From Acidobacteriota bacterium (GTDB lineage: Bacteria; Acidobacteriota; Terriglobia; Bryobacterales; Bryobacteraceae), in NCBI GenBank assembly GCA_016871015.1, contig VFZX01000028.1, forward strand, positions 1 to 37,613: DNA of 37,613 nt, written 5' to 3'. A program made the position numbers and the translations under genes. Position 1 is the stretch's first letter; the number at the start of each line of letters is the position of its first letter. Positions 14,940 through 35,702 of the stretch are shown here, one piece after another. The notes beneath the pieces are model-generated. The model saw nothing but the letters and a program-made list of their open reading frames with translations, was not told the DNA's origin and searched no databases.

Positions 14940-16301
14940 TCATCGTTGCGTTACCGCAGGCTGAAAACTCGCCTGGTGGCTCGCCATCGCATCCTTCATT
15001 TGCGCGACGATCTCAGGATTCTGCGCGGCGACGTTCACCCGCTCGCCGTAGTCGGACTCAAGGTGGTACAGCTCCAACGCGTCCGGCTCCTTCGCGCTGT
15101 GCCTGCGGAGCTTCCAGGGTCCGCGCCGCATCCCGTGCAGCATCCCGGCGTGGTAATAGAAGAAGTCGCGCTGCGTTCGGCTGGAGCCTTCCCAAAGCAC
15201 CGGCGCGAGATCAGCACCGTCGAGGACCAGGCTGGCTGGCGGCAGGCCTCCTGTCATCCGTGCGATTGTCGGAAACACGTCGAGCGCCGAAGCAACATCC
15301 GGAATCACGCGGCCGGGCTGGATGCGCCCCTTCCAGCAAGCGATGAATGGCGCGCGGTAGCCGCCGTCCCAGGTCGTCGCCTTCCCTTCTCTCAGCGGAC
15401 CGTTCGACCCGCCGTGGTCGGCCAACTGGACCGGCGCGCCGTTGTCGGAAGTGAACAGAATCAGGGTGTTCTCGTCGAGCTTCAACGCGGCGAGTGTCTT
15501 ACGGATCTCGCCAACGGACCAGTCCAGCTCTTCCACCACATCGCCGAACAGCCCGCCGCGGCTCTTGCCACGGAACCGCGCGCTGGCAAACAGCGGCACG
15601 TGTGGCATCGTATGGGCGAGATACAGGAAGAACGGAGCTCCACGGCTCGCGGCACCCTTGATGAAGGCGATCGCGTCTTCGGTGTAGCGGGCGGTCAACT
15701 GGGTTTGATCAGGATCGCGCTCCAGCACTTCTTCGTTCCGCATGAGCGGGACTCCGGGCAGGGTGCGGTAGCGGTCCAGCGCCGAGGGCGGACGCGTCAA
15801 GCCTTTCTTCTTGTTGATCTCGTCGTAGACCACGTTGGTCTTGAGGCTCATGTCGTTCGAGAACGGGATTCCGAAGTAACCATCGAATCCGCGTTTGGCG
15901 GGCAGGTACTGAGGCAGGTGTCCGAGATGCCACTTGCCAGTGACATGGGTCGCGTAGCCGCGCTGCTTCAGCAAAGCCGCGATGGTGAGCTCGGAGTCCG
16001 GCAGTCCGCCGGTGGAATCGGGGAACAGCACAAAATTGACACCGCTGCGGACCTGATAACGGCCGGTGAGCAGGGCCGCGCGGCTAGGGGAGCAGAGCGG
16101 GGCGGCGGAGTAGAACTGCGTGAAGCGGACGCCATCGGATGCCAATCGGTCGAGGTTGGGAGTCCGGATGGTGGGGTGGCCGTAGCAGGAGAGATCGCCC
16201 GATCCCAGGTCGTCCGCGTTGATGAGGACGATGTTCGGCAATTTCCTCCGCTGGGCGAGGGCGGGGATGGCAAGCGAGGACAACAGAGCACGGCGAGTCA
16301 T
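14940..16301 (-). CDS. Exported sulfatase (arylsulfatase A type)
   Basis: The open frame extends to 16586 inside the divergent gene. The ATG at 16301 begins a twin-arginine leader (MTRRALLSSLAIPALAQ) and gives 453 residues. Hallmarks are the first metal-binding aspartates (NIVLINADDLG, Asp30-Asp31) and the sulfatase signature C-S-P-S-R at Cys70, the residue converted to formylglycine. Also present are the KWHLGH segment, the second metal site (LFTSDNGAP) and the late TWDGGYRAPF segment. Sulfatases remove sulfate esters from sugars or aryl compounds in the periplasm or outside. With cysteine in the signature, a formylglycine-generating enzyme must be encoded elsewhere. No ribosome site is obvious, and only 28 bp separate it from the divergent cytochrome gene. 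Confidence 0.92.
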   Translation of the reverse strand: MTRRALLSSLAIPALAQRRKLPNIVLINADDLGSGDLSCYGHPTIRTPNLDRLASDGVRFTQFYSAAPLCSPSRAALLTGRYQVRSGVNFVLFPDSTGGLPDSELTIAALLKQRGYATHVTGKWHLGHLPQYLPAKRGFDGYFGIPFSNDMSLKTNVVYDEINKKKGLTRPPSALDRYRTLPGVPLMRNEEVLERDPDQTQLTARYTEDAIAFIKGAASRGAPFFLYLAHTMPHVPLFASARFRGKSRGGLFGDVVEELDWSVGEIRKTLAALKLDENTLILFTSDNGAPVQLADHGGSNGPLREGKATTWDGGYRAPFIACWKGRIQPGRVIPDVASALDVFPTIARMTGGLPPASLVLDGADLAPVLWEGSSRTQRDFFYYHAGMLHGMRRGPWKLRRHSAKEPDALELYHLESDYGERVNVAAQNPEIVAQMKDAMASHQASFQPAVTQR

Positions 16302-16329
16302 GGAAGAGATCCAGTATAAGATACGAGAT
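16302..16329. promoter_or_regulatory. 28-bp head-to-head spacer, sulfatase / cytochrome gene
   Basis: The two start codons lie only 28 bp apart. This is too short for two ordinary promoters with leaders, so at least one promoter should lie within the opposite coding region or both mRNAs should be nearly leaderless. The spacer is AT-richer than its flanks (around CCAGTATAAGATACGAGAT). Confidence 0.45.
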
Positions 16330-18813
16330 ATGAAGACGCTGCTGTTGGCATCGGTTCTGGCGGGATTGGCTCCCGCCGCGATGCCCCCGGACTTGCAGGC
16401 GCTTCTCGGCAGGAATTGCCGCTCCTGCCATTCCGGAGCCGCGGCCAAAGCGGGACTCGATCTCGATCCCCTGCCGTTTGACCTGGCCAATCGCGCAACG
16501 CGTGAGCGCTGGATCCGGATCCACGACCGGATTGAGCGGCGCGAGATGCCGCCGCCGGGCGTCACGCTGCCACCCGCCAGTCGCACCGCCCTGATCCGGG
16601 CCCTCGCCCCCCGTCTTCACGCTGCCGACCTCGCCGACGCCGCCCGGAACGGCCGTGGACCCATGCGCCGGCTGAACCGCGACGAGTACGAGCAGAACCT
16701 TCGCGACATCCTGGAGCTTCCGTATCTCGACATCCGCGACATGCTGCCTGAAGATCGCGAGGCGCACCACTTCAACAAAGTCTCGGAAACACTCGACATG
16801 TCGCGGGTCCAGCTCACGGCGTATCTGGATGCTTCGGAGGCGGCTCTGCGCCAGGCGATGGCCACCGCGGACGCGCCTCCGCCGGTCACGAAATTCCGGA
16901 CCTTCGGGCGCAACCTGTTCCCAGGCCTTCGCAGCACGGGCACGCGCCACTCGATGTTCTTCATCAAGGACAACCACGGAGTGAACATCGAATCCGAGCG
17001 GACGGTGTCGATGCCGAAGGAGCTTGAAGAGGATCCGGCGCTCGAGATGGGCCTGTTCCGTTCGCCAGGCTGGCCCTACGGCGCGTTTCCCCGGGGATTC
17101 GCCGCCAAGCACCCTGGCGAGTACCGGGTGCGCATCGCCGCCCGCGCCGTGCTGCAGCATCCCGGATTCAAGTTGAGCGACGCTAAGCAGGCCGTGCCCA
17201 TGACGTTCCGCTCGCGGCGTCCGACGAATCACGACATCGCCGAGGATGTGAAGTCGGTCGGCGGGATCCTCGAGATCGAGCCGGGCGGGAAAGTCTACGA
17301 GACCGTCGTGCCGCTGGTGGCCGGCCAGACCGTCGAGTACGGACTGCTCGGACTGCCGGTTCCGCAAGTTGACGCCGAAGGCCGCACAGGATGGTACCGC
17401 TTTCCGCCATTTCCGCCCGAAGGCCAGCCCGGCGTGGCGTTCAACTGGATCGAGATCGAGGGACCGCTGCCGCCGCCTTCGTGGCCGCCCTCCAGCCACC
17501 GGATCCTGTTCGACGGGCTGGGTGTGAATCCCGCGCCTGCCAATCCGAAGCAGGAAGCCAGCCGGCTGCTGCGGAGGTTCGTACACCTCGCCTCACGCGG
17601 TCCAGCGCCGGAAGACGCGGTGCGCCAGTTCGAGCGGCTGATCCACGCCCGGCTCGACCGCAATGAGCCGTTCGCCGAGGCGATGATCGCCGGCTACCAG
17701 GCGTTCCTCTGCTCGGATCTGTTCCTCTACCTCCGCGAGCCAGGATCGAGCGCCGACGCCGCCAACCGGCTTTCGCACTTCCTCGCCAACACACGGCCCG
17801 ATCCCCAACTGCTCGCCGCCAACCTGCGGGATCCGGCTGTGCTGCGCCGCGAGACGGACCGCTTGATCGATTCTCCCAGCCTTGACCGGTTCGTGAACAG
17901 CTTCACCGCCTACTGGCTCAACCTGCGCCATCTTCGCCGCGATGATCCTGACAAGCGCCTGTTCCCCGAATACCAGCTCGACGAGTACCTGGCCGATTCG
18001 CTCGAGCGCGAGACGCGCGAGTTCATCACCGCCATGGTGCGCGGCAATCTTCCGGTCCGCAATCTTGTCGACGCGGACTTCGTGTACGTGAATGACCGGC
18101 TGGCCCGGCACTACGATCTCGACCCCGTCACCGGATCGGCCATCCGCCGCGTGGCTCTGCCCGCCGGAAGCCCGCGCGGCGGACTGCTCACACAGGGCGC
18201 GATCCTGAAGGTCACCGCCAACGGCGCCGGGACATCGCCGGTGCTCCGCGGCGCCTGGATCGTGGACCGCATCCTGGGCGAGCCTCCCCCGCCGCCTCCG
18301 CCCGGCGTGCCGGCGGTTGAGCCCGACATCCGCGGGGCCAAGTCGATTCGCGATCTGCTGGCGATGCACACCAAATCAAGCACCTGCGCGTCGTGCCACG
18401 CCAAGTTTGATCCGTACGGACTCGCACTGGAGAACTTCGACGTGATGGGCCGCTGGCGGACCCACTACCGCGGCACTTCGGAAGGCGAGCGTGTTACGGG
18501 AATCGATCATACCGGACACGATTTCGCCTACACGGTCGCTGGCGCGGTGGATTCCAGCGGAGCCCTGCTCGACGGACGCACCTTCCGCGATATCCGCGGT
18601 CTGAAGGCGGTCCTGGCATCCAATCCCCGCCAACTGGCGCGGAATCTGCTGCATCAATTCACGGTGTACGCCACCGGAACTCCAGCGCGGTTTTCCGACC
18701 GGGCTGAGATCGAGAAGCTGCTCGATACCTGCGCACCGGGCGGGTACCGCACCCGCGACCTGATCCATGCCCTTGTTCAGAGCCGGATCTTTTTGGGAGA
18801 ATCCAATCGATGA
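16330..18813 (+). CDS. Exported DUF1592/DUF1588/DUF1585 cytochrome c-like protein
   Basis: The ATG at 16330 begins a signal peptide (MKTLLLASVLAGLAPAA); upstream in-frame codons lie in the sulfatase gene. The 827-residue protein carries the haem motif CRSCH at 30-34, then DUF1587 (RLNRDEYEQNLRDILEL) and a long insert region. After these come DUF1595/1592 (SRLLRRFVHLASRG; AMIAGYQAFLCSDLFLYL; NSFTAYWLNLRHL) and a proline run (EPPPPPPPGVP). DUF1588 has the second haem motif CASCH at 686-690 (DPYGLALENFDVMG), and DUF1585 is at the end. It is about 190 residues longer than the first such protein in the window, mainly between the cytochrome head and DUF1592. The DUF1552 gene follows with an ATGA overlap, the usual arrangement. 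It is probably a periplasmic redox protein; substrate unknown. Confidence 0.92.
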   Translation: MKTLLLASVLAGLAPAAMPPDLQALLGRNCRSCHSGAAAKAGLDLDPLPFDLANRATRERWIRIHDRIERREMPPPGVTLPPASRTALIRALAPRLHAADLADAARNGRGPMRRLNRDEYEQNLRDILELPYLDIRDMLPEDREAHHFNKVSETLDMSRVQLTAYLDASEAALRQAMATADAPPPVTKFRTFGRNLFPGLRSTGTRHSMFFIKDNHGVNIESERTVSMPKELEEDPALEMGLFRSPGWPYGAFPRGFAAKHPGEYRVRIAARAVLQHPGFKLSDAKQAVPMTFRSRRPTNHDIAEDVKSVGGILEIEPGGKVYETVVPLVAGQTVEYGLLGLPVPQVDAEGRTGWYRFPPFPPEGQPGVAFNWIEIEGPLPPPSWPPSSHRILFDGLGVNPAPANPKQEASRLLRRFVHLASRGPAPEDAVRQFERLIHARLDRNEPFAEAMIAGYQAFLCSDLFLYLREPGSSADAANRLSHFLANTRPDPQLLAANLRDPAVLRRETDRLIDSPSLDRFVNSFTAYWLNLRHLRRDDPDKRLFPEYQLDEYLADSLERETREFITAMVRGNLPVRNLVDADFVYVNDRLARHYDLDPVTGSAIRRVALPAGSPRGGLLTQGAILKVTANGAGTSPVLRGAWIVDRILGEPPPPPPPGVPAVEPDIRGAKSIRDLLAMHTKSSTCASCHAKFDPYGLALENFDVMGRWRTHYRGTSEGERVTGIDHTGHDFAYTVAGAVDSSGALLDGRTFRDIRGLKAVLASNPRQLARNLLHQFTVYATGTPARFSDRAEIEKLLDTCAPGGYRTRDLIHALVQSRIFLGESNR

Positions 18814-20111
18814 AGGCGCCTCACATTGCCACCCGTCCGATGCCACGCCGGTCGTTTCTGCGAAGCTCCGGTGTAGCGCTGGCACTTCCGCTGCTCGACT
18901 GCATGACGCCGGTGTTCGCGCAGGCTCCCGCGCCGCCCCGGCGGATGCTGATCTTCGCCAACAACCTCGGCGTACTTCCGAAGCACTTCTTCCCGCAGGC
19001 GGCGGGGCGCGGATACGAACTGTCGCCTTACCTGGCCGAGCTCGCCGGATTCCGCGACGACTTCACCGTGTTCAGTGGACTGTCGCATCCCGGAGTCTCC
19101 GGTGGGCACAGCGCGGACAACTGCCTGCTCACCGCTGCGCGCGGGGCGTTCAAGAGCGGATTCCGCAATTCGATCTCGCTCGATCAGTTCGCCGCCGAGA
19201 AGCTCGGGCAGGTGACACGATTCCCCAGCCTGAACCTGGGCGTCAACATCGACAAGGGCAACCGCAGCCTCGCCTGGACCCGCGACGGAGTTCTGCTGCC
19301 CGCCGAGGACAGCGCCCCCAAGCTGTACGAACGGATGTTCGTGCAGGGCAGCCAGGAAGAGGTCGCGCGGCAAGTCCACCGGCTGGAGAGCCGCGGCAGC
19401 ATCCTCGACACACTGCTCGGCGAGACGCGGCGGTTCAGCCAGGAGTTGGGCGCGGGCGACCGCGCGCGGTTGGATCAATATGTGACGTCGGTGCGCGAGG
19501 TCGAGGTCCGGCTGCAAACGGCGCGTGCTTGGGAGCTGAAGCCCAAACCCGCGGCGTCGCAGCCCCCTCCACCGGATCTCCAGGACAAAAAGCTGTTCTT
19601 CGAGAAGCTCGGCTTGATGATGTCAATGGCGCAGTTGGCGTTCGAGTCCGATTCGACGCGCATCGTGACGCTGATGGCCGACGCCTTCTTCACGCCGGTG
19701 TTCAAGTTGAATGACGGGCAGACGTCCACCGATTCCTACCATGGACTCACGCACCATGGGCAGGCGGAAGGCAAGGTCCGGCAGCTTGAAGAGGTGGACC
19801 GGCAGCAAATGCGGCTGATCGCGAGGACACTCGCCGGACTGGCGTCGAAGAAGGAAAACGGGGAGCGGCTGCTCGACCGCACCATGGTGTTCTACGGAAG
19901 CAACATGGGCGACGCCAACATCCACGACAACACGAACCTGCCGATCCTGCTTGCCGGCGGTGGATTCCGGCACGGCCAGCACATCGCCTTCAAGCGCGAC
20001 AACAACGCTCCGCTGTGCAATCTGTTCGTCAGCATGATGCAGCGGATGGGAATCGAGACGGAGTCCTTCTCGAGCAGCACGGGGCCGCTGGCCGGACTCG
20101 ACCTGTCATAA
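18810..20111 (+). CDS. DUF1552 protein with twin-arginine signal
   Basis: The ATG overlaps the cytochrome stop codon (ATGA) and has a GGGAG site upstream. The 433-residue product has a twin-arginine leader (MPRRSFLRSSGVALALPLLD, arginines 13-14). It matches the other DUF1552 protein in segment order: MLIFANNLGVLPKHFF, FSGLSHPGVSGGHSADNCLL, SISLDQFAAEKLG, MSMAQLAFESDSTRIVTLM, TMVFYGSNMGDANIHDNTNLPILLAGGG. The GSNMGDANxHxNTNLP segment near the end is the strongest signature. Family knowledge links it to the alkaline-phosphatase/DUF1501-like superfamily. The tight pairing with the cytochrome-like protein implies that the two work together outside the cytoplasm, but no reaction is established. 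Confidence 0.92.
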   Translation: MKAPHIATRPMPRRSFLRSSGVALALPLLDCMTPVFAQAPAPPRRMLIFANNLGVLPKHFFPQAAGRGYELSPYLAELAGFRDDFTVFSGLSHPGVSGGHSADNCLLTAARGAFKSGFRNSISLDQFAAEKLGQVTRFPSLNLGVNIDKGNRSLAWTRDGVLLPAEDSAPKLYERMFVQGSQEEVARQVHRLESRGSILDTLLGETRRFSQELGAGDRARLDQYVTSVREVEVRLQTARAWELKPKPAASQPPPPDLQDKKLFFEKLGLMMSMAQLAFESDSTRIVTLMADAFFTPVFKLNDGQTSTDSYHGLTHHGQAEGKVRQLEEVDRQQMRLIARTLAGLASKKENGERLLDRTMVFYGSNMGDANIHDNTNLPILLAGGGFRHGQHIAFKRDNNAPLCNLFVSMMQRMGIETESFSSSTGPLAGLDLS

Positions 20112-20114
20112 CGG

Positions 20115-21512
20115 CTACTGCTGTTGGAGCAGTTCCTTGACCGCGGCCACGCGCCCGCGCATGAGCGGTTCCACTCCGATGGCGGCCCCGCCCGGTCCAC
20201 CACCTCCCGGACCACCAGGTCCGCCCGGCACTCCCGGGACACCCGCGGCCTGCGTCATCGCCGCGTCGAACTGCTGCAGCGTGTGGAGCTTGTTCGGATC
20301 CCGTTCCACCCAGGGCCGGATCAGGGTCCGCAGCTCGTTCATGCGCATCACCAGTTTGTCGACATCGAGCACCTGGTCATAGAGCCGTTTGTAGATCTCG
20401 CGATAGCGGGCTTTGACTTCCGGAATCGCCCACAGCTTGGTGGCTAACGGCCGTGCGGCGCTGGCGCCTCCAGGTCCACCCGGACCACCCGGACCGCCCG
20501 GGCCTGGAGGCGGACCGCCCGGTCCTGGTCCCGGAGGCATGCCGCCACCACCACCGCCGCCGAATCCCGTTCCGGTCCACTCGAGCGGAAGCGTCCGCAT
20601 CTGCTCGGCGGAATTGCCGCCGGTGAACGCGCCAAACGCCAGGCTCGGATCCCACACCAGCCACTCGAACTTGTTGTCCGTCGGCCGGCGGTAGATGTAG
20701 AAGTTCTGCGACATCGCGACGTAGCTGTCGAGATTCAGCGTCAGGTTGTCGAGCGCCATCGCTGTGAGGAAGCTGTCGAGATCCAGGATCTCGGAGATCT
20801 TCGCCTGGAGATCTTCCTGCGGCGTGCGGTTGAGCACGGCGATCAATCGGATGAGATCGGACCAGTCGTCTTCATCCTCGTGGGTTTTCTTCTCGAAGGT
20901 GCGCGCATAGGGGGCTTTCTCGTCGCCCCGGTCCTCGAACGTGCTCCCGATGTCTCCCTTGTACAACCAACCGTCCCGCTCGGCCTTTGGGAAGTGCTGA
21001 TCGATGTAGTCGTCGTTGATCACTTCTCCCAGGAAGTAGATGCCATGGAACTGGTTGTTGATGTACAGCGCCGCGTAGTTCATCCGCGCTCCCTTCAGCC
21101 CGGCCGCGCGGGCCAGCTCATAGTAGGGCGCCTCACGGGCCATCGTGGGATCGAGGTTGAAGTTGTTCAGGTTGATGGAACCGATGCCCTTGATCTTCTG
21201 TCCCTTCGTGTACTCGTTGAACTTGATGCGGAACGGCTTCTTGACGCTGTTCACGCGCGCCGTCGAGTTCCCCTTGATGCGCACGCCGACCTTCTCGAAC
21301 CTGACATCGCGCCAGGCAAAGCTCGCCTGGATATACGGCACATCCTCGGTGACGCTGTTGAAGTTGGCGAGCAATTGCTGGTACCAGTCCGGCTGCTCGA
21401 AGGTCAGGAACATCTCGTGAACTTCGTCCCGCTCGAACAGCGGGTGCGTGTCGGGCAGGGTTTGAGCGGACAGAGCCGCCACCCCAAGAAACACAAGGGT
21501 CTGCTTGATCAT
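20115..21512 (-). CDS. Exported CotH-kinase-family protein with collagen-like inserts
   Basis: The 465-residue protein has a signal peptide (MIKQTLVFLGVAALSAQ). Its CotH core runs from about 30 to 300: VGVRIKGNSTAR (76-86), KKPFRIKFNEY (91-101), LNNFNLDPTMARE (115-127), INNQFHGIYFLGEVI (151-165), NFYIYRRP (270-277) and WLVWDPSLAFG (284-294). CotH proteins are atypical protein kinases, known for spore-coat phosphorylation in Bacillus. The usual W-D-x-D segment reads W-D-P-S here, so one acidic residue is missing and activity is uncertain. Two Gly/Pro tracts interrupt the sequence, at about 318-349 and 425-442, with collagen-like G-x-P triplets. Last gene of the VTC/DUF4956/HlyD/TolC operon, it overlaps the TolC-type gene by 4 bp. 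It is likely periplasmic or surface-located. Confidence 0.88.
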   Translation of the reverse strand: MIKQTLVFLGVAALSAQTLPDTHPLFERDEVHEMFLTFEQPDWYQQLLANFNSVTEDVPYIQASFAWRDVRFEKVGVRIKGNSTARVNSVKKPFRIKFNEYTKGQKIKGIGSINLNNFNLDPTMAREAPYYELARAAGLKGARMNYAALYINNQFHGIYFLGEVINDDYIDQHFPKAERDGWLYKGDIGSTFEDRGDEKAPYARTFEKKTHEDEDDWSDLIRLIAVLNRTPQEDLQAKISEILDLDSFLTAMALDNLTLNLDSYVAMSQNFYIYRRPTDNKFEWLVWDPSLAFGAFTGGNSAEQMRTLPLEWTGTGFGGGGGGGMPPGPGPGGPPPGPGGPGGPGGPGGASAARPLATKLWAIPEVKARYREIYKRLYDQVLDVDKLVMRMNELRTLIRPWVERDPNKLHTLQQFDAAMTQAAGVPGVPGGPGGPGGGGPGGAAIGVEPLMRGRVAAVKELLQQQ

Positions 21513-22726
21513 ATGGAATCTCCCACCGCCAGCTCGAGTTGAGCAAGCTGCCGTACGTATTCAACCTTCTTTTCGAGCCACCGGTCTTTCAGCCGGATGC
21601 GCCTCACCTGCGCCGCCAGTACCGCCACGCGGTCGGTCCTTCCACTGGCGAGGAGAGTCTGAACACGGTCGATGGCGCGCGTCGCCAGTTCCTCATGCTG
21701 GCGCGCCATTGCCGCCAATTCCCCCGCCGATGCCTCCAATGCCGCCGCGGCATCTTCCACCTCACGGCGGATCCGGCGCTTCAGTGCCTCGTCTTCCAGC
21801 CGGCACTGGCTCCGTTGGGCGAAGGCCACCAGCCACTCGCCCCGTGCCTGCGACGAGCGGAGGAACGGAAGATCGAGTCCGACCTGGAATCCCCACGCCC
21901 CCCTGTCTGAGCCGTAGCCCGACCGGCGCGAGATCTGCGCGAAAGAGAACCACGGATACCGCTGGTTGCGGCTCAATCCTTCCGCAGCCGCCAGTTCACG
22001 GCATTCCGCGGAGACCTTCAGCAACGAGCCCCGGTTGCGCAATGCACGCGCCGCGAGTTCCGCCGAATCCATCCCCGCCGCTGGATTGGCCAGCAGCTCA
22101 GGCTCCGCCTCCAGCCGGGCGGACCCTTCCCCGTCCAGCCAGCGCCCCAACACACGCCGCGCGGCCCCGGACGCGTTCCGGGCGCGCCGCAGATCGTTCT
22201 CCGCGTCGGCCACGTCCAGCTCGGCGAGATCGAGGTCCCCGGCGTCCTTGAGCCCCGCCTCCACCTGCTTCCGGACCACATCGAGCAACTGGCGCCGGAC
22301 CTCCAGAATCTGCTCTGCCTGTCCGGTTCGATGCTCGTCCAGCACAACTCTCCGGAAGACGAGCCTCACTTCCGCGGCGGTCTTGGCTTCCGCATCACGG
22401 ATGTCCGCGCCTGCCGCCTGCTGCCGCGACTGCGCGATCTCGCGCTTCCAGCGAAGCTCGCCAGGCCGCGGAGGCGACCAGCGAACTCCCGCGCTAGTCC
22501 GGATCCCAAACAAGTCCGGATCAAACGCCAGACTGTTCGCACCCAGCCGGATCTCGGGCGTAGACAGCGACCCTGCCAGCCGGACCCGCGCGTCCGCCAC
22601 CGTCAGCGACGCCCGCGCCGCCACGAGATCCGGATCGCTGCGCAGCGCCTCTTTGACGGCCTGCTCAATCGTGATGGCCGGGGCAAGCGAGGCCACCGCC
22701 AACAGGATCCAGATCCGGAGCTTCAT
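21509..22726 (-). CDS. TolC-family outer-membrane efflux protein
   Basis: The 405-residue product begins with a signal peptide (MKLRIWILLAVASLAPA) and then ITIEQAVKEALRSDPDLVAARASL, the usual opening of outer-membrane efflux proteins. Long amphipathic helices rich in Ala, Glu, Arg and Leu make up most of it, in the two internally similar halves expected of the family (LRRARNASGAARRVLGRWL; CRLEDEALKRRIRREVEDAAAAL). TolC-type proteins form trimeric tunnels through the outer membrane and periplasm and dock with an adaptor. The start overlaps the stop of the HlyD-type adaptor gene by 4 bp, and the stop overlaps the CotH gene start, so all three are probably translated together. Confidence 0.9.
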   Translation of the reverse strand: MKLRIWILLAVASLAPAITIEQAVKEALRSDPDLVAARASLTVADARVRLAGSLSTPEIRLGANSLAFDPDLFGIRTSAGVRWSPPRPGELRWKREIAQSRQQAAGADIRDAEAKTAAEVRLVFRRVVLDEHRTGQAEQILEVRRQLLDVVRKQVEAGLKDAGDLDLAELDVADAENDLRRARNASGAARRVLGRWLDGEGSARLEAEPELLANPAAGMDSAELAARALRNRGSLLKVSAECRELAAAEGLSRNQRYPWFSFAQISRRSGYGSDRGAWGFQVGLDLPFLRSSQARGEWLVAFAQRSQCRLEDEALKRRIRREVEDAAAALEASAGELAAMARQHEELATRAIDRVQTLLASGRTDRVAVLAAQVRRIRLKDRWLEKKVEYVRQLAQLELAVGDSI

Positions 22727-23802
22727 CGCGACCCCCCAGCCAGGAACCGTACGTCCAGCGCCTCACCGTTGTCGAGCCGGGCGCCCGCGGGGATCTCCAG
22801 GATCACCTCGCGTCCCCATTCTGGCATTGAGGGGAGGACCCAAAACCGGGTCGGAAGCTGGGTCACAGTCTCCGGTATGCGCGCGATCTTGGTCCGGAAT
22901 TCTTCGCGGTCCAGGCTCCGGCGCCTCAGCAACGCCGGCGCGCCCGCGCTGATCCGGGCCCCGTCCCGTTCGTTGACGTAGGCCACCACCTGCCGCGGTC
23001 CCGAGCCTTGCAGGATCAGGAAAGGTACACCAGCGGCCGCGACATCACCGGTCCGCGCGAGCAGCGACACCACCAGGCCGTCGGCGGGTGCGAGCAGACT
23101 GGCGGCTGCAATGCGTGCGCGCAACACCCGGATCGCCTCGTCCTGCTGCGCCGCCTGGTCCCGCATCGGTTGGACCCGTGGAGCATTCCCTGACGACCGG
23201 GTGCGCCAGGCGCGGAGGCGCTCTTCTGCCTCCCGGACACGGCGCTCCAGCGGCTCGATCCTGGCGGGTGCCTGCCGTAGGGTCTCGTCGGCGGTGCGGA
23301 GCCGCAGCTCCAACTCGTCCAGACGGTCGCGTTTGGCCAAGCCCTCCTGGACGAACCGCTTTTGCCGCGCGATCTCGTCGCGCAACGGCGCGATCTCCGC
23401 GGACTGTCTTTGCTGCCCGGCGCGGGCCGTGTCGAGGCGCGATGCCGCGTCGGCCAAGTCCGACTGAAACGCACGTTCCGTCTCGTAGCCACTGTTATCG
23501 ATCTCCACGAGCGATGCCCTCTCTTCGCTGCCAGCCTGGCGCCGCCGCGCCTCGACCACTGCGATCTCGCGCTCGATCACCGACGTATCCAGGCGCGCGA
23601 GCAACTGCCCGGCCTTCACCGGCTGTCCCGGGACCACGGCGACCTCGGCCAGCTTCGCTGTCTCGGGCGACGCGATCCGGTGCTCCGGCGCGATGACCTG
23701 GGCCGGCGCGTCGGCCACGCCGGATTCCTCACGGATGATCCAGTAGGCGCCGCCGGCCGCGAGCACCCAGACAGTGAACGTCACCACGGTCCGCCAGCTC
23801 AC
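22723..23802 (-). CDS. HlyD-type periplasmic adaptor (membrane fusion protein)
   Basis: A GTG at 23802, with a GGAGG site about 7 nt upstream inside the preceding gene, starts a 359-residue protein. It has one N-terminal membrane segment (VVTFTVWVLAAGGAYWII, about 6-23). Next is a lipoyl/barrel-sandwich half-motif (VAVVPGQPVKAGQLLARLD), then a coiled-coil hairpin of about 140 residues rich in Arg, Glu, Gln and Ala. The second half-motif follows (SLLAPADGLVVSLLARTGDVAAAG), then a beta-barrel. This is the layout of adaptors that bridge an inner-membrane transporter and a TolC-like channel. No ABC or RND pump lies in this operon, so its inner-membrane partner is either elsewhere or the neighbouring DUF4956 protein. 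Confidence 0.9.
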   Translation of the reverse strand: MSWRTVVTFTVWVLAAGGAYWIIREESGVADAPAQVIAPEHRIASPETAKLAEVAVVPGQPVKAGQLLARLDTSVIEREIAVVEARRRQAGSEERASLVEIDNSGYETERAFQSDLADAASRLDTARAGQQRQSAEIAPLRDEIARQKRFVQEGLAKRDRLDELELRLRTADETLRQAPARIEPLERRVREAEERLRAWRTRSSGNAPRVQPMRDQAAQQDEAIRVLRARIAAASLLAPADGLVVSLLARTGDVAAAGVPFLILQGSGPRQVVAYVNERDGARISAGAPALLRRRSLDREEFRTKIARIPETVTQLPTRFWVLPSMPEWGREVILEIPAGARLDNGEALDVRFLAGGSR

Positions 23803-23803
23803 A

Positions 23804-24475
23804 TCATGCCTCCAGCCTCGTGTCCTCGAGCATCAGCGCGATTCCGGTCAGGCCCTGGACCCGGGCCAGCTCCTGGACCAGCGCCTGCCGCGAGTCATCG
23901 TTCCGGAACCGGACATGATAGACGTGCTCGCTCACCTCGCCCTGCCCGGCCTCCCGCACGGTGGCCAGCACGAACAGCCGGCAGTGGCGGCGCATGCTCT
24001 CGGCGGCGGCATGCGATGCTGGTCCGTCCCATGGGGCAGTGAAGCGCAACAGTCCGTCGAAGCTCTTTTGTGCGCCGAACGGGACATGGGCCAGGTACAG
24101 CGCGATTGCGCAGAACATCAGCGTCCCGAGCGCTCCCAGCGCGTAGGCACGGGTCCCTGCCGCGATCCCGCCTACCAGGGACGCGAACACGAACACCATG
24201 TCGCGCGGATCCCGCAGATTCGTCCGGAACCGGACCAGCGCCAGCGCACCCACCACGCCGATCCCCCAGACGATGTTGTTGCCGATGGCAAGCATCATCA
24301 TTGCGGTCACGACGCCGCTCATCACCAGCGTCTGAACGAACGTCTGCGAGTACGACAGTCCCCGGTGCGACCATACGTACACGATCGCGATCAAGTGCGA
24401 CATCGCGAATGCCGCGAGCAAAGATGCGGCAGCCGTGCGTAGATCCGCCACTGTCGCGGCGCTTACCGGGATCAT
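23804..24475 (-). CDS. DUF4956 integral membrane protein
   Basis: The frame is open to 24706, but the ATG at 24475 overlaps the VTC gene's stop (ATGA) and gives 223 residues. Four or five membrane segments lie in the first 150 residues: AAASLLAAFAMSHLIAIVYV, FVQTLVMSGVVTAMMMLAI, WGIGVVGALALV, MVFVFASLVGGIAAGTRAYALGA and LMFCAIALYLAH. The loop GALALVRFRTNLRDPRDM is the best family signature: DUF4956 proteins share a G-x-L-x-x-(V/I)-R-F-R-T motif. The C-terminal 70 residues look like a soluble alpha/beta domain (RLFVLATVREAG, VYHVRFRNDD, GLTGIALMLEDT) recalling regulatory ferredoxin-like domains. DUF4956 genes are often found beside VTC-domain genes. Its role is unknown; transport or anchoring of the VTC product is a natural guess. 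Confidence 0.87.
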   Translation of the reverse strand: MIPVSAATVADLRTAAASLLAAFAMSHLIAIVYVWSHRGLSYSQTFVQTLVMSGVVTAMMMLAIGNNIVWGIGVVGALALVRFRTNLRDPRDMVFVFASLVGGIAAGTRAYALGALGTLMFCAIALYLAHVPFGAQKSFDGLLRFTAPWDGPASHAAAESMRRHCRLFVLATVREAGQGEVSEHVYHVRFRNDDSRQALVQELARVQGLTGIALMLEDTRLEA

Positions 24476-25239
24476 CGGCCTGCCCATCCCCCGACGAACG
24501 CGTTGGGCCGCAGATCCCATGCCTGCTCGCCCTCCCGGGTCCAGCGCCGTACTGAGCGTCCGTACTTGGAGAATCCCCGCCGGATCAAGCCGAACCGCCG
24601 CGTCAGGTCCTGCAGCCATGCTGGCGCGCGGACCGAGAACTTCATCTCCATGATGTAGCTCGACGGCGTTCCGCCCATCGAGACCGCGTCGTCTACCAGG
24701 CGCCACGCGCGTGGATCGCCCGCCAACTGCCAGTCACGCACGGGTTGGCACCGGACCCGCCGGTCAAACGTCACCCGGACGTAGTCGTCAACGGTGCTGG
24801 TGAAGGCAAGCCGCTCGTACTCGACCAGCATTTTCGGGGTCGCGCGCAGCGTCTCCATGAGACGGACGAACTCGTTGTGTCCGGAGGAAACGCCGGAATG
24901 CCGGCAATGCCGCAGTTCCCGCGGGTCGGCCGGCGCCGAGGTCTTTTGGATCAGGTCCATGGATCTGCGCTTGACTTCGAGCTTGGCGAGTCCCGCACAG
25001 TCGCCGTAGCCGCGAATGCGCAGTTTGAACCGCTGCGGCGCGCTGTCCTCCGTGTCCCAGTAGCAACTCATGCGGTCGTTGTCCAGGTACAGACTGCGGA
25101 TCGGGTACCAGGCGCCTCCTGTAGAGTGCTCATCGAGCGTGCAATACGGAGCAAGGTACTCATGGATCGTTTCCACCTGGGACGGACGGATCAGGTACTT
25201 GAACTCGTAGCGCGCGACACTGAGACCGTTTTCCGCCAT
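24472..25239 (-). CDS. VTC-domain protein (polyphosphate-polymerase fold)
   Basis: The frame allows a TTG at 25242, but the adjacent ATG at 25239 is the better start (255 residues). Conserved basic and acidic residues of the tunnel-shaped VTC domain are all present: RYEFKY (10-15), RSLYLDN (48-54), KLRIRGYG (72-79), KLEVKRR (86-92), EYER (140-143), RVTFDRRVR (155-163), EMKFS (198-202) and FSKYGRS (223-229). In eukaryotic VTC4 this domain makes polyphosphate from ATP; bacterial stand-alone versions are assumed to act on nucleotides or polyphosphate, but few are tested. It has no signal peptide, so the active site should be cytoplasmic. As first gene of the operon it is followed without gaps by DUF4956, adaptor, channel and CotH genes. 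No ribosome site is visible before the ATG. Confidence 0.9.
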   Translation of the reverse strand: MAENGLSVARYEFKYLIRPSQVETIHEYLAPYCTLDEHSTGGAWYPIRSLYLDNDRMSCYWDTEDSAPQRFKLRIRGYGDCAGLAKLEVKRRSMDLIQKTSAPADPRELRHCRHSGVSSGHNEFVRLMETLRATPKMLVEYERLAFTSTVDDYVRVTFDRRVRCQPVRDWQLAGDPRAWRLVDDAVSMGGTPSSYIMEMKFSVRAPAWLQDLTRRFGLIRRGFSKYGRSVRRWTREGEQAWDLRPNAFVGGWAGR

Positions 25240-25255
25240 CAAACGTATGAACGTA

Positions 25256-25285
25256 ATTATGACGATTTGGTTGCAGCCCGGTCAG
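25256..25285 (-). promoter_or_regulatory. Possible sigma-70 promoter of the VTC operon
   Basis: Read on the reverse strand, CTGACC (25280-25285) and CATAAT (25256-25261) are separated by 18 bp, a fair match to -35 and -10 hexamers. The predicted start of transcription would lie only about ten bases before the VTC ATG, which fits the lack of a ribosome site and would give a very short leader. Found by eye only. Confidence 0.35.
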
Positions 25286-25358
25286 TTAAGAGACGTAAAG
25301 ATTCGTTAAGCCGCGCGTCCACCCCCCTTGACACCGGTGCTCAAGCGCGACACCCTCG

Positions 25359-31190: not shown

Positions 31191-32408
31191 TCAGAAGCTA
31201 TACCGGATCCCCATGACGCCGTGGGAATTGAGCCGGAACTGGCCGAGGAAATCGCCCGCCTTTCCCCGGATCAGCGTGAACCCCGCCGTCCCGCGCCAAT
31301 GCGCTCCAAACTGCTGGGAGTACTCGCTCTTCCACCAGACACCATCGCCGTTCTGCCGTACCGCGGTCTCGAACGCCAGCGTCCTGCGTGAATCAATCGT
31401 GTACTGCGCCCTGCCGAGGAACGACCGGGCGAGGCCCCGGTCCGGCGCGAATGAGAACGGGTTGCGCCGCGCCGTCACCGCCTCACCGCCGTAGCCGCCC
31501 ACCACTACCCACTCACCCCAGGTCCGCTCGATCTGCACGACATAGAGCACGTATTCGTCGGCCACCGTGGTCCGGCTGCGGAACCACGCCGTCTCAGCCT
31601 TCACCGTGAACCATGGTAGCGGCACGGCGGCATCGGCCCCGTACAGCCGCAGCGACGGATGAAAGCGCTCAAACTCGATCGCACCCCGCAGCAGGTTCAG
31701 CCGGGGATCGAGCAGAGGCAGGTAGTGAAATCCGTCATAGAATACCGCTGAGAATTCATAGCCCCGCCCATTGTGGTTCCACCGCGCTCCGAACTGGGTC
31801 CGCCCGGGAATGCGCGGACCCAGATCGGTGAACCGGAACTGCGACAGCTCTGGCGGGACCACCACCCAGCGCTGGTTCAGAAGCGGAGTCCGTGCGGGCG
31901 TGAACCGCGGCGATACCACCAGGTCAAGCGTCTCGCTCCCGCGCTCCACCGTGACGCGGCCCGCGGTGACACCGAGAAAATCGTTGTCCACCACGCTCAG
32001 GTAGTCGCGGGGCGCGAACCGGTCCAGCGGATTCAGAATGTCCGCCTTGCCCCACCGGATGAACTGCTTGCCGGCTTCCACCGTCACTCCGCCGCGATGC
32101 CACTGCGCGCTCAGCCGCCGCAGCGACAGTGCCGGACGCTGGATCCGCCGGTCCTGCCAATCGAACCGGAGTTTGCGCTCTACCATCCTGTGCGTATCCA
32201 CCCGTGCGTCCACCGACCCGTAGACCGCGAGGTCCCGCTGAACCCGCAGCGACGGCTCCCAGCGGATCAGCGCTTCGCCCACGGCATGGCCACTGTCTCC
32301 AGGCGCGGCTTGCGGATACAACGTAGCCCGCGTGTCGATGAATCCCCGCTGCGTGAATGTCTGCGCCTCCAGCAGAACAGCGGCCGCAAGCGCCAGCGCG
32401 AGCCTCAT
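31191..32408 (-). CDS. Outer-membrane beta-barrel-like protein of a lipid/lipoprotein transport operon
   Basis: The frame runs to 32708 inside the upstream gene, but the ATG at 32408 overlaps that gene's stop (ATGA) and opens a signal peptide (MRLALALAAAVLLEAQ). The 405-residue product is rich in alternating hydrophobic and aromatic strands (YGSVDARVDTHRM, VTVEAGKQFIRWGKADILNPLDRFAP, RTQFGARWNHNGRGYEFSAVFY) and ends GVMGIRYSF with a terminal Phe typical of outer-membrane barrels. The W-G-K-x-D-x-x-N-P-x-D segment recalls the DUF1302 and alginate-export type barrels. Its operon partners are a LolA-like protein and an ABC transporter, so it may be the outer-membrane acceptor or channel. Substrate unknown. 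Confidence 0.82.
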   Translation of the reverse strand: MRLALALAAAVLLEAQTFTQRGFIDTRATLYPQAAPGDSGHAVGEALIRWEPSLRVQRDLAVYGSVDARVDTHRMVERKLRFDWQDRRIQRPALSLRRLSAQWHRGGVTVEAGKQFIRWGKADILNPLDRFAPRDYLSVVDNDFLGVTAGRVTVERGSETLDLVVSPRFTPARTPLLNQRWVVVPPELSQFRFTDLGPRIPGRTQFGARWNHNGRGYEFSAVFYDGFHYLPLLDPRLNLLRGAIEFERFHPSLRLYGADAAVPLPWFTVKAETAWFRSRTTVADEYVLYVVQIERTWGEWVVVGGYGGEAVTARRNPFSFAPDRGLARSFLGRAQYTIDSRRTLAFETAVRQNGDGVWWKSEYSQQFGAHWRGTAGFTLIRGKAGDFLGQFRLNSHGVMGIRYSF

Positions 32409-33154
32409 GATCCCCGGCGCAGAGCCTGCAGCGTGAACCCGCTCTCGCTCAACGGCACGTTGTAGTCGAGCTTGTCGAGCTTCATTACAGTCTTGCTCTT
32501 GCGCGTGACATCTTCCACTTCGAGCGTGCGTGCGGTCCAGATTCCCTTGACGTTTTCGAAATCGCCATACCGGATCCTCCGCACCAGCGCGTCCTTCCTG
32601 AACGCCTCCACGCGCACGAACGCGTAGAGATCCTTGCGGATCCACACCAGTGACCGCGTGTACTGCGACGAACGGCCCGGACGCGGTTGCGATTCGAGCT
32701 TCCAACACACCGCGCCCTCCACAGTCTCCTCCCCGAGCAGCTTGTAGTCGTGATGGGCGGAGTCGCGCTCCTCCAGATCCTCAAAGCTGAAGTCGGTGCC
32801 AAAGAAGCGTGTCGACCGGTCCTGCAGCGCGATCCTCCGGTCACGCTGGATGGCCGGCGTCCACATCCACTGGTCCGATGCGCGGTCCTTATGATTGTGG
32901 ATCAGCAGCGCGACTCCCTTCACCTCAGCCGGAGCAGTGAACCGCAGCACCGCCTTGCTGTCGCCGAATGCGCCGATCCGGTCATACTGCCAGCGTTTCT
33001 CCGCCATGCGATTCTTGCCGTCGAGCACCTGCAATGTGCCTTCGTAGTGCTGCGAGTTTGACCGTGCGCGCTTCTGTGCCTCGTCCACGATTTGCCGCGC
33101 ATCCTGAGCGGTTGCGGCAATGGCGGCGAGGGCGGGAATGATCCATCTATTCAT
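32405..33154 (-). CDS. LolA-like outer-membrane lipoprotein-sorting protein
   Basis: The 249-residue product has a short signal peptide (MNRWIIPALAAIAATAQ), then the LolA-like half-barrel seen in proteins of PF17131 type: ILVDEA-like start (QIVDEAQKRARSNS), GFGDSK-like strand (IGAFGDSKAVLRFTAP), GVALLIHNH, DQWMWTPAIQRDRRI, FFGTDFSFEDLEERD, CWKLESQP, RSLVWIRKDLYAFVRVEAF and GIWTARTLEVEDV. Members are periplasmic carriers for hydrophobic cargo such as lipoproteins, lipids or hopanoids. The gene overlaps the ABC permease by 8 bp and the barrel gene by 4 bp, arguing strongly for one machine. Whether cargo moves outward or inward is not shown. Confidence 0.88.
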   Translation of the reverse strand: MNRWIIPALAAIAATAQDARQIVDEAQKRARSNSQHYEGTLQVLDGKNRMAEKRWQYDRIGAFGDSKAVLRFTAPAEVKGVALLIHNHKDRASDQWMWTPAIQRDRRIALQDRSTRFFGTDFSFEDLEERDSAHHDYKLLGEETVEGAVCWKLESQPRPGRSSQYTRSLVWIRKDLYAFVRVEAFRKDALVRRIRYGDFENVKGIWTARTLEVEDVTRKSKTVMKLDKLDYNVPLSESGFTLQALRRGS

Positions 33155-35699
33155 ATTCGAGGGACTCCACCAAGGATGCGCGCAATGCCGCTTCCGCGGG
33201 CCACAGGGCCGCTAGAAACGCGGCGCCCACGATCACCGGAAACAGCGCCAGCGCGAATCGGAACGGATACACGTAGTCGAGGTCGAGTCCAGCCATATCG
33301 CCTCCGATCATTTCGATGTTGTAATAGAGCGTCACCGCGCCCATCAGCCATCCGAGCACCAGTCCGACGGTCCCGATCGCCACCGCCTCGAGCCACACCG
33401 TGTTGCGGATCTGGTTCCGGAGCCCGCCCACGGCCTGCAGGACGCCCAGCTCGCGCCGGCGGTCGGCGATCGACACCGTCATCGTGTTGACGATCCCCAT
33501 CACTGCCACGATCAGCGCCACCAGCAACTGGATGTAGGTCATGCCGAACCACTGTTCAGTGTTCCGCATGATCAACTCCCGGATCGACGCATTGGTGAAC
33601 ACGAACAGCTTGCGATTGGAGCTGAAGCGCTCAATGATGCGGCGGCGCACCGCTTCCGGATCCTCGCCCTTGCGCAGATAGACGCGGAACGCATTCGCCG
33701 TCTCGTCCTTCCAGACGCGGGAGTAGAGCGACCGGTCGATGATGAAGGCGCCCTGCTGATCGGAGAAGTCCACGCGCGTGCCCAGGACCGGCACTTTCAG
33801 AATCCCTTCGGGCGAGGCGAGCTCCAGGACATCGCCCTTCTTGATCCCACGGATTACCGCCAGCGTGGTCGATAGAATGGCCCCCTTCCCCTCGCTCGCA
33901 AGCTGGACCATCTCCACCGGGTCCGCATCCACCGGCTTGTATTTCACCCTGCCCGCTACCTGCCGGACATCGACCACCACCGCCATCGCCGGCACGCCCT
34001 TCAACTGGACCCGCACGGTCCGCACCGCCTGCACTTCCTCGACCCCCGGAACCTGCGCGATCTCGCTGGTCATGGACAACGGAAACCGGTAGCTGCGCTG
34101 GGTGACACTCTCGGTCGGCGCCACGAACAGGTCCGGATTCAGCGTGTCGTCCACCCAGTCGAGCAACTGGGTGTAGATCGCGCGCGACACCCCGGCGAAG
34201 CCCACCGCGAGCGCCAGCGACAGCATCACCGCGGCGACCGTGGCGGAAGTCCGGCGCGGCGCCTGGATCAGGCTGTCGGCGGCGAGCGTGCCTTCCACCG
34301 GGCGGATCAGGCGGAGCAGCGGACGCAGGCTCAGCGCGATCCAGTGGGACAGCGACGGCGACAGCAGCACGAGCGCGAGCACCATCAGCCCGTATCCGAA
34401 ATAGAAGATCGTGAGCGTCGGTCGCGTGACCACAATGGCGATGGAGACCGCCGCGAGCACGAGCGCGGCGATCCGCCGGATCCGGTTCTCGCCCTCGCTC
34501 AGCACCTGATAGCGGCCCTTCTGCAGCGCCTTTACGGGATCCACGCGGGCCGCGCTCCGCGCCGGGAGCCATCCGCCCACCAGGCTGACCGCGGTCCCCA
34601 ATGCCACCGCCGCCGCCATGGTCCACGGACTCATGCTGACTCCGTCCGGCATCTGATGCGTGCCGTACAGTTCGCGCACCATGTTGCTCATGAACGGCGA
34701 AAGCGAGCGCGCCATCAGCAGTCCGAGCCCGAGGCCAAGGATGGATCCCGCCAGCCCGGCGGCGGCGCTCTCGGCGAGAAACATCCGCAGTACGTCTCGC
34801 TCCGAAGCGCCCAGCGCGCGCAGGATTCCGATCTCGTTCCGCCGCTGCGTGATCGCAATCGAGAACGAGTTATAGATAATGAACACGCCGATCATCAGTG
34901 CGAACACGCTGGTGAGATTGATCGTGATCGACAACGACCGCGAGATGGCGTCAAACTGCTGAGTGCGCGATGCCGGGGGCAGCACGTCGTAGCCTTCGCC
35001 CACCACCGCGCGGACCTTGTTCTGGGACGTTTCGAGATCCACGCCTTCCGCGGCGCCGATGTCAATGCGGTCGAACCGCCGCCCGCGTCCAAAGATGAAC
35101 TGCGCGGCGTAGATGTCCATCACTGCGACATTGCCGCCGAACGCGCCCGCAAGTCCATCGGACTTCATCAGTCCCCGCACGGTGAACTGCCGCGGACCCT
35201 GCATGGTGTCGAGCGTGATGCGCGATCCGCGCTGAATGCCGTTGGCTTCGGCGAATTTCCGGGACAGGATAAGCGAGTCCGGCTGCGCGAGGAAGACCAG
35301 CGGATCCTCCACCACATCCTCTTCGCCGCCCTCGATATCGTAGTCGCGCAGGGACCGGTCGCCCGTCATGTCGACGCCCAGCACCAGCAGGTTGCCCTGG
35401 CCCTTGAGATTCGTGTTCAGCACCGCTTCAATGACCGGCGCTGCGGCTCCCACCTCCCGCACCGACTGCACCGCCTCGAGCACTTCCTCCGGGACTCCGG
35501 TCTCTCCGGCCGACACCTGCAACTGCGCTTTGCCCGCGATCCGGTTCACCGTTGCCGCAAAAGCCTGGGCTACGGTCTGGTTCGCGCCATGCATGCCCAC
35601 GAACACGGCGACACCCAGCATGATTCCAGCCAGCGTGAGGACGCTCCGGAGCCGGTGTTTGCGCACGTACGGCCAGGTGAGCAGGCGCAACAGCGTCAT
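33147..35699 (-). CDS. ABC transporter permease, FtsX/MacB type (large)
   Basis: The 850-residue membrane protein has two FtsX-type halves. The first starts with a membrane segment (LTLAGIMLGVAVFVGM, about 23-38), followed by a periplasmic domain (MacB_PCD-like). A first FtsX bundle lies near 270-390 (VFALMIGVFIIYNSFSIAITQRRNEIGILRALGASERDVL). Further segments and a second periplasmic domain lead to a last bundle (YIQLLVALIVAVMGIVNTMTVSIADRRRELGVLQAVGG to the end). R-R-x-E-(I/L)-G-(I/V)-L-x-A-(L/V)-G is the diagnostic loop and occurs twice. Such permeases act with a LolD/MacB-type ATPase in mechanotransmission, moving lipoproteins, lipids or peptides rather than small solutes. It lies 3 bp after the ATPase gene. 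Confidence 0.92.
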   Translation of the reverse strand: MTLLRLLTWPYVRKHRLRSVLTLAGIMLGVAVFVGMHGANQTVAQAFAATVNRIAGKAQLQVSAGETGVPEEVLEAVQSVREVGAAAPVIEAVLNTNLKGQGNLLVLGVDMTGDRSLRDYDIEGGEEDVVEDPLVFLAQPDSLILSRKFAEANGIQRGSRITLDTMQGPRQFTVRGLMKSDGLAGAFGGNVAVMDIYAAQFIFGRGRRFDRIDIGAAEGVDLETSQNKVRAVVGEGYDVLPPASRTQQFDAISRSLSITINLTSVFALMIGVFIIYNSFSIAITQRRNEIGILRALGASERDVLRMFLAESAAAGLAGSILGLGLGLLMARSLSPFMSNMVRELYGTHQMPDGVSMSPWTMAAAVALGTAVSLVGGWLPARSAARVDPVKALQKGRYQVLSEGENRIRRIAALVLAAVSIAIVVTRPTLTIFYFGYGLMVLALVLLSPSLSHWIALSLRPLLRLIRPVEGTLAADSLIQAPRRTSATVAAVMLSLALAVGFAGVSRAIYTQLLDWVDDTLNPDLFVAPTESVTQRSYRFPLSMTSEIAQVPGVEEVQAVRTVRVQLKGVPAMAVVVDVRQVAGRVKYKPVDADPVEMVQLASEGKGAILSTTLAVIRGIKKGDVLELASPEGILKVPVLGTRVDFSDQQGAFIIDRSLYSRVWKDETANAFRVYLRKGEDPEAVRRRIIERFSSNRKLFVFTNASIRELIMRNTEQWFGMTYIQLLVALIVAVMGIVNTMTVSIADRRRELGVLQAVGGLRNQIRNTVWLEAVAIGTVGLVLGWLMGAVTLYYNIEMIGGDMAGLDLDYVYPFRFALALFPVIVGAAFLAALWPAEAALRASLVESLEYE

Positions 35700-35702
35700 C
35701 GC

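Follow-up and report, generated by a model that had tools for sequence, protein, structure and literature searches.

A predicted polyphosphate polymerase, a DUF4956 membrane protein and a CotH-family kinase linked to a HlyD/TolC pair with no pump gene alongside in diderm bacteria

Gene organization of the operon

The window analyzed here is a stretch of 37,613 nucleotides from an Acidobacteriota bacterium of the family Bryobacteraceae (contig VFZX01000028.1, assembly GCA_016871015.1). It carries on its minus strand, at 20115-25239, a five-gene operon joining a VTC-domain protein, a DUF4956 membrane protein and a CotH-family kinase to a HlyD-type adaptor and a TolC-type channel. From gene 1 to gene 5, these are:

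24472-25239, minus strand: VTC-domain protein, predicted cytoplasmic polyphosphate polymerase (gene 1; PF09359, 121.7 bits)
23804-24475, minus strand: DUF4956 membrane protein (gene 2; PF16316, 40.4 bits; AlphaFold2 model)
22723-23802, minus strand: HlyD/EmrA-type periplasmic adaptor, GTG start (gene 3; PF13437, 38 bits; model; EmrA 4tko)
21509-22726, minus strand: TolC-type outer-membrane channel (gene 4; PF02321 OEP, 103.5 bits, two stretches)
20115-21512, minus strand: CotH-family kinase (gene 5; PF08757, 191.5 bits; spore coat protein H 5jd9)

The operon is confirmed and is not a chance arrangement. In a Pfam scan, all five products exceed the curated cut-offs (23 bits for VTC, 30.6 for DUF4956, 22.2 for HlyD_3, 22 for OEP and 23.8 for CotH). 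The tight spacing claimed in the original prediction, which had been made from this DNA alone, can be read directly: three junctions are 4-bp ATGA overlaps (VTC/DUF4956 at 24472-24475, HlyD/TolC at 22723-22726 and TolC/CotH at 21509-21512), and a 1-bp gap at 23803 separates DUF4956 from HlyD. The VTC gene starts at the ATG at 25239 or, alternatively, at a TTG at 25242. The host genome (8.66 Mb) has a single VTC match and a single DUF4956 match. It also has a PPK1 match, so VTC would be dispensable for ordinary polyphosphate.

Properties of the encoded proteins

The VTC protein of 256 amino acids (aa) is a predicted polyphosphate polymerase in which the active-site residues are kept. A profile of 10 VTC sequences retrieved yeast VTC4 (3g3q) from the PDB with an E-value of 1.4e-10; a phmmer search of the PDB with the single window protein gave nothing convincing. 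By a hand count along 8i6v_E, K15, R75, R77, E199 and K226 correspond to VTC4 K200, R264, R266, E426 and K458, of which K200 and K458 presumably belong to the active site. In an alignment of 118 VTC rows, from which short or low-scoring rows were left out, R75, R77, R156, E199, K201 and K226 are identical throughout, and K15 is present in 115 rows (two gaps and one Met). An excerpt of PMC9911596 describes a yeast VTC4 construct, R264A/R266A/E426N, in which three of the corresponding residues were changed together. PF09359 was its only match at E-values up to 0.1 in the window, and no SPX domain was detected.

The AlphaFold2 model of DUF4956, built with 80 sequences, has a mean predicted local distance difference test (pLDDT) score of 85.9. 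It shows five helices (12-36, 44-64, 68-84, 90-107 and 111-130), followed by a beta-alpha-beta-beta-alpha-beta domain, ACT-like, at about 139-217, for which a fold search gave matches to ACT and other ferredoxin-like domains. Over the helices, a profile comparison with MgtC (hhalign) gave a probability of 90.8% and an E-value of 1.2e-6, and a G.G..G....R pattern is common to MgtC and the membrane part of DUF4956. Matches to the MgtC family (PF02308) were obtained in 58 of 80 DUF4956 relatives at E-values up to 1, the best being 8.2e-5. To judge from the model and these comparisons, DUF4956 would be a remotely MgtC-like protein with five membrane helices and an ACT-like domain. MgtC itself is reported to end in an ACT-like domain, and the model of DUF4956 does likewise; the gene neighbourhoods of the two differ. 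The stretch from the last part of helix 3 into the helix 3-4 loop carries R82, R84, R88 and R91, of which R82 and R84 are invariant in the 80 rows; by the positive-inside rule, the side of these basic residues would be cytoplasmic, together with the ACT-like domain.

The HlyD product is, according to its model (pLDDT 93.7), an EmrA/MacA-type periplasmic adaptor, with an N-terminal helix (3-26) and a long helical hairpin (74-233) flanked by the beta parts, lipoyl and barrel, expected of such an adaptor; its best PDB match is EmrA (4tko, E-value 2.1e-19). An extra C-terminal part of about 300 aa is present in 22 of 86 HlyD rows, those longer than 560 aa (loci L030, L127, L128, L130-L133, L139, L142, L144, L147, L151, L158, L159, L168, L170, L171, L174, L175, L177, L180 and L181). 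Among the nine extensions scanned, seven match phytase-like, SdiA-regulated or DUF3616 domains, and three of the seven do so above the cut-off. Three Chitinispirillaceae loci have a further gene between HlyD and TolC (L154:8726-9646, L162:8729-9685 and L165:3826-4626); it is phytase-like in L154, the only one scanned, and similar in the others, and may be a free-standing counterpart of the domain that is fused to HlyD in other loci.

The CotH product aligns with spore coat protein H (5jd9, E-value 1.5e-10), including the Asp residues of its NLD and WD motifs. It has the N.D..WD pattern, as do 67 of 89 CotH rows. The NLD Asp aligns with the NFD Asp of 5jd9, which may be the catalytic Asp named D228 in an excerpt of PMC7821199. 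The N-terminus is signal-peptide-like (by eye, no predictor run), and the protein has a Gly/Pro-rich insert.

Distribution of the gene cluster

Among 200 genomes of the host family, 27 contain VTC. After exclusion of one locus without any core match (L057), 28 core-gene loci were compared, of which 10, including the window, have VTC-DUF4956-HlyD-TolC in a row; CotH is on the same strand in eight of these 10, and three of the 28 lack DUF4956. In a phylum sample, VTC was found in 25 of 396 genomes, and VTC-DUF4956-HlyD with no TolC detected alongside in five of 29 loci. A sixth locus, L097, is HlyD-type by one scoring and was labelled as lacking HlyD under the stricter labels used for the DUF4956 tree. 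A contig scan with DUF4956 gave at least 80 loci, with HlyD in 77 and both HlyD and TolC in 59 of the 80 listed; the scan was seeded with HlyD-type DUF4956 sequences, so that 77 of 80 is not a frequency among all DUF4956. The HlyD-type counts from the family (10 of 28 VTC loci) and the phylum sample (6 of 29) are less affected by such selection. In 14 control genomes, VTC and DUF4956 both match in the same three.

Removing nine scan loci on the same contigs as family loci left 84 de-duplicated HlyD-type loci (10 from the family, six from the phylum sample and 68 from the scan), defined by HlyD near DUF4956 on one strand. VTC is present in 79 of them, TolC on the same strand in 60 and CotH in 42, and HlyD lies directly 3' of DUF4956 in 76. 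The gene order varies (VTC-DUF4956-HlyD-TolC, CotH-DUF4956-HlyD-TolC-VTC or CotH-HlyD-TolC-VTC-DUF4956), and a content that stays constant while the order changes is the strongest evidence for a joint function. No fusion of two core domains in one open reading frame (ORF) was found in the loci examined.

Among the matches listed, HlyD-type loci occur in about 14 named phyla: Planctomycetota, Myxococcota, Verrucomicrobiota, Thermodesulfobacteriota, Fibrobacterota, Acidobacteriota, Calditrichota, Delongiibacteriota, Lentisphaerota, Kiritimatiellota, Krumholzibacteriota, Spirochaetota, Bdellovibrionota and Pseudomonadota (the last labelled only as proteobacterium). These are NCBI ranks, the genomes are mostly metagenome bins and five loci have no phylum. 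The phyla concerned are regarded as diderm. One carrier, Desulfoluna limicola (L170), is in culture. Four Gram-positive VTC-DUF4956 records have neither HlyD nor TolC, and three of them have CotH; a plasmid search for relatives of the HlyD-type cluster retrieved four records, all Gram-positive. The genes keep company across phyla, far beyond what the original prediction, correct in its observation, could show.

The core of the cluster is not new: according to an excerpt of PMC7112168, cotH, a polyphosphate polymerase and DUF4956 form an accessory set of Gram-positive Pel loci, so that VTC-DUF4956-CotH is already published as a recurring neighbourhood, as had been claimed for it. The three families are the same as here. 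In contrast, the Pel set is tied to pelDEADAFG, and that excerpt mentions neither HlyD nor TolC as part of it. No glycosyltransferase family was found among 28 different ORFs of the window in the Pfam scan, in which no Pel-specific model was run. In the open-licence literature searched, we found neither an adaptor/TolC version of VTC-DUF4956-CotH nor exported polyphosphate together with TolC.

Absence of a pump gene

Neither the ORF list nor the Pfam scan shows a pump gene in the window operon. Known exporters such as EmrAB-TolC and MacAB-TolC resemble it in having an EmrA/MacA-fold adaptor and an OEP channel, but the window operon has DUF4956 in the place of the pump. As originally proposed, this is the only inner-membrane candidate of the operon, and it is the sole multi-helix protein common to the clusters.

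The ABC, FtsX and RND queries used to detect pump relatives by phmmer were selected on motif, length or membrane segments. Of the 10 pump-type proteins scanned, nine bear the expected Pfam family; the remaining one, L233, labelled MFS, bears none and was removed from the control. Any ABC, FtsX or RND relative is present in the fetched stretch of five of the 84 listed loci: on the other strand in L132 and L142, weakly in L168, in L194 and in the window. The other nine HlyD-type loci of the family have none in the fetched stretch. A contiguous same-strand ABC/FtsX gene is found only in L194, where it comes with its own second HlyD adaptor, leaving 83 of the 84 listed loci with no contiguous ABC, FtsX or RND gene. 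In contrast, such a gene lies within 3 kb on the same strand at 17 of the 23 other HlyD genes of the host genome included in the control (of 25 in total); of the remainder, one HlyD is near a many-helix protein without a Pfam family and five have no such neighbour, some of them on short contigs. Therefore, the pair is not regularly accompanied by a pump, and its description as an adaptor and channel without one stands. Membrane segments were also counted in 84 extra same-strand genes of at least 180 aa: three of these genes (in L097, L153 and L194) encode proteins with at least three predicted segments, the one in L153 being a Na+/H+ antiporter.

The pump relatives of the window are an ABC ATPase (35703-36377) and a FtsX/MacB-type permease (33147-35699), about 8 kb beyond VTC and beside a LolA-like gene. 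The signature of the ATPase is MSGGE, so that it had been missed by a Walker A/LSGGQ pattern. Both belong to a separate minus-strand set at 31191-36377, made up of the ATPase, the 850-aa permease, the LolA-like protein and a 505-aa protein for which the Pfam scan gave no match.

Phylogeny of DUF4956 and HlyD

In the DUF4956 tree (126 sequences: 83 with HlyD, 31 without and 12 undecided), presence or absence of HlyD requires two state changes, compared with a mean of 27.2 in shuffles. Likewise, the HlyD tree (107 sequences) separates 81 cluster adaptors from 26 others with two changes, compared with 23.6 in shuffles; both trees come from quick searches and carry no bootstrap values, and contrasts of this kind are inflated by close relatives. 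This near-complete separation on both trees makes DUF4956 and HlyD look specialised for the cluster. On the DUF4956 tree, 27 HlyD-less clusters were scored for CotH, and 25 of them have it. Two genomes, G191 (L034/L037) and G148 (L035/L044), have a HlyD-type and a HlyD-less VTC-DUF4956 cluster on different contigs, and the two types may thus do different jobs.

A possible polyphosphate export machine

The constant gene content, the missing pump and the nearly separate subfamilies are best explained by a reading, to which we give about an even chance, in which the five genes encode one trans-envelope polyphosphate export machine with the polymerase standing in for the pump. As a soluble tunnel enzyme at the cytoplasmic side, VTC would make the polyphosphate chain from ATP. 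DUF4956 would dock VTC and pass the growing chain through the inner membrane, as the membrane helices of Vtc1/3/4 do in yeast, and the HlyD/EmrA-type adaptor and TolC-type channel would carry it across the periplasm and the outer membrane. CotH would work at the outer side on some surface target and might draw its phosphate from the exported polymer; this donor role is a guess and the weakest part of the model.

Passage driven by polymerization would explain why no pump is needed. According to an excerpt of PMC9911596, the yeast VTC complex couples synthesis and membrane passage, and its tunnel feeds a channel in the membrane. The likeness between the Vtc1/Vtc3/Vtc4 complex and the window proteins lies in the tunnel polymerase and its active-site residues; they differ in that the window VTC has no SPX domain, the membrane part would be MgtC-like and there would be two membranes to cross. 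Alginate export with the HlyD-like Alg44 is also polymerization-driven and has no classical pump, as proposed here; it differs in concerning a polysaccharide, with another synthase and another outer-membrane channel. The need of a diderm cell for an adaptor and a channel beyond the inner membrane would explain why HlyD and TolC accompany the cluster in diderms and are missing from the four Gram-positive records. CotH occurs in HlyD-less clusters and in Gram-positive Pel loci, and its work is therefore probably done on the outer side in both.

If this reading is true, bacteria would have a dedicated route for placing polyphosphate outside the cell, HlyD and TolC would have a new class of inner-membrane partner driven by polymer synthesis, DUF4956 would have a function, and extracytoplasmic CotH kinases would have a phosphate donor where ATP is lacking. 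According to excerpts, the source of ATP for the CotH of Bacillus subtilis is called unanswered in PMC7821199, and PMC13318637 (2026) lists VTC4 under Eukarya and holds that dissolved polyphosphate probably comes from cell lysis. The most far-reaching version, a new kind of exporter in about 14 diderm phyla in which VTC replaces the pump, DUF4956 is the conduit and the exported polyphosphate feeds an extracytoplasmic CotH, appears doubtful to us, and we put it forward tentatively.

Several observations weigh against the export machine. The polyphosphate cargo, the path through DUF4956, the outward direction and the energy source are all inferred. The resemblance of DUF4956 to MgtC is remote, and PF02308 gave no match in the DUF4956 protein of the window; the fold search listed no relative of its membrane part, which was barely tested because ACT-like matches filled the PDB lists. 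The absence of an MFS pump was judged from the count of membrane segments, not from similarity. VTC-DUF4956-CotH clusters lacking HlyD make up 15 of the 28 host-family loci (some ending at contig ends), so that a version without this adaptor is common in the same diderm family. The export interpretation of the original prediction is upheld in part, by the linkage across phyla and the pump-less pair. CotH, missing from half of the listed HlyD-type stretches, is the loosest member. In 24 of the 84 loci, no TolC was detected next to HlyD; six of these loci are cut by contig ends and 18 have enough flank, and in the latter the channel gene may lie elsewhere or have diverged too far to be recognised. 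VTC is not nearby in five HlyD-type loci. Three of their genomes have it elsewhere; in the other two (L138 and L150) it was not found, and both loci end at contig ends, L138 just after TolC, which is the place of VTC in related orders, and L150 inside HlyD. A whole-genome search with the upstream repeats described below gave no sign of phosphate regulation of the operon. Finally, similar extra genes, several of them lamin-tail-domain or arylsulfotransferase-like (L131:11363-13000, L154:11822-13900, L191:4993-7002 and L129:3276-4721), lie beside 12 of the 84 loci and could encode a secreted substrate.

Such neighbours would suit a surface-modification module, in which VTC, DUF4956 and CotH phosphorylate or decorate a surface polymer or protein, the VTC polymer stays at the inner membrane, and HlyD and TolC secrete a separate substrate, such as these lamin-tail or arylsulfotransferase-like proteins. 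VTC-DUF4956-CotH also lies beside polysaccharide genes in Gram-positives, according to the excerpt of PMC7112168, and the Gram-positive locus L198 has two glycosyltransferases and a pyruvyl transferase. However, HlyD and TolC need an inner-membrane partner, for which DUF4956 is the sole common multi-helix candidate, and the secreted-type neighbours are found at only 12 of 84 loci, and CotH at 42; on balance, we regard such a module as unlikely. The same export route could also serve a VTC product other than polyphosphate, for which a nucleotide derivative or a short oligophosphate would be candidates by analogy with other CYTH/triphosphate-tunnel enzymes. The PDB relatives retrieved are all eukaryotic VTC proteins, the best at an E-value of 1.4e-10, and we found no report of bacterial VTC activity in the literature searched, but the VTC4 active-site residues compared are kept, which makes another product rather improbable.

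The ABC/FtsX pair some 8 kb away in the window raises the question of whether adaptor and channel use an ABC, RND or MFS pump encoded elsewhere. DUF4956 would then regulate phosphate or ATP balance in the manner of MgtC, and the genes would be linked only because they are co-regulated. MgtC reportedly promotes phosphate uptake in Salmonella, to judge from the title of PMC6658541. Nevertheless, the contrast between the pump genes near 17 of 23 other host HlyD genes and the single contiguous one among the 84 clusters, together with the nearly separate subfamilies of the cluster HlyD and of the HlyD-linked DUF4956, leaves this explanation little chance. An inward or sensory flow, with uptake or sensing of extracellular polyphosphate or phosphate and with VTC running in reverse or serving as a sensor, would account for the phytase-like, SdiA-regulated-like or DUF3616-like domains fused to HlyD or encoded beside it in several loci. 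Known HlyD/TolC systems are exporters, which counts against it, and in yeast VTC synthesis is coupled to passage out of the cytosol (excerpt of PMC9911596); we consider it very improbable.

Upstream repeats and genomic context

Upstream of the operon and of its -35/-10-like pair lies a repeat element:

25285-25310, minus strand: three direct repeats, CTTAAC/CTTTAC/CTTAAC, with an exact 10-bp period

A single promoter-like -35/-10 pair was found upstream of the operon, compared with 0.5 in shuffles. In the whole-genome search, the three-copy repeat without mismatch matches only this site, and with up to two mismatches it matches four places, compared with none in a reversed control; the two-copy form has five places, two of them the operon's own. 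By eye, two-copy repeats precede the first gene of L031-L035, L038, L042, L120 and L121, not of L030 and L036, and similar but less clear ones lie upstream of some HlyD-less clusters. These CTTAAC-type repeats are a possible OmpR/PhoB-type response-regulator box.

Of the three other two-copy places, C83 lies near genes for a flavin-reductase-type and an Oar-like protein and C587 near one for a c-type cytochrome, identified by eye from the protein starts only; the proteins around the third, C43, were not recognised. A role of the repeat as a mark of the phosphate regulon is not supported, as no pst or pho gene was recognised by eye around these three places.

Elsewhere in the window, two sets of DUF1592/DUF1588-type and DUF1552 genes are found at 1366-7414 and 16219-20111, and two leucine-rich-repeat genes sit between members of the set at 1366-7414.

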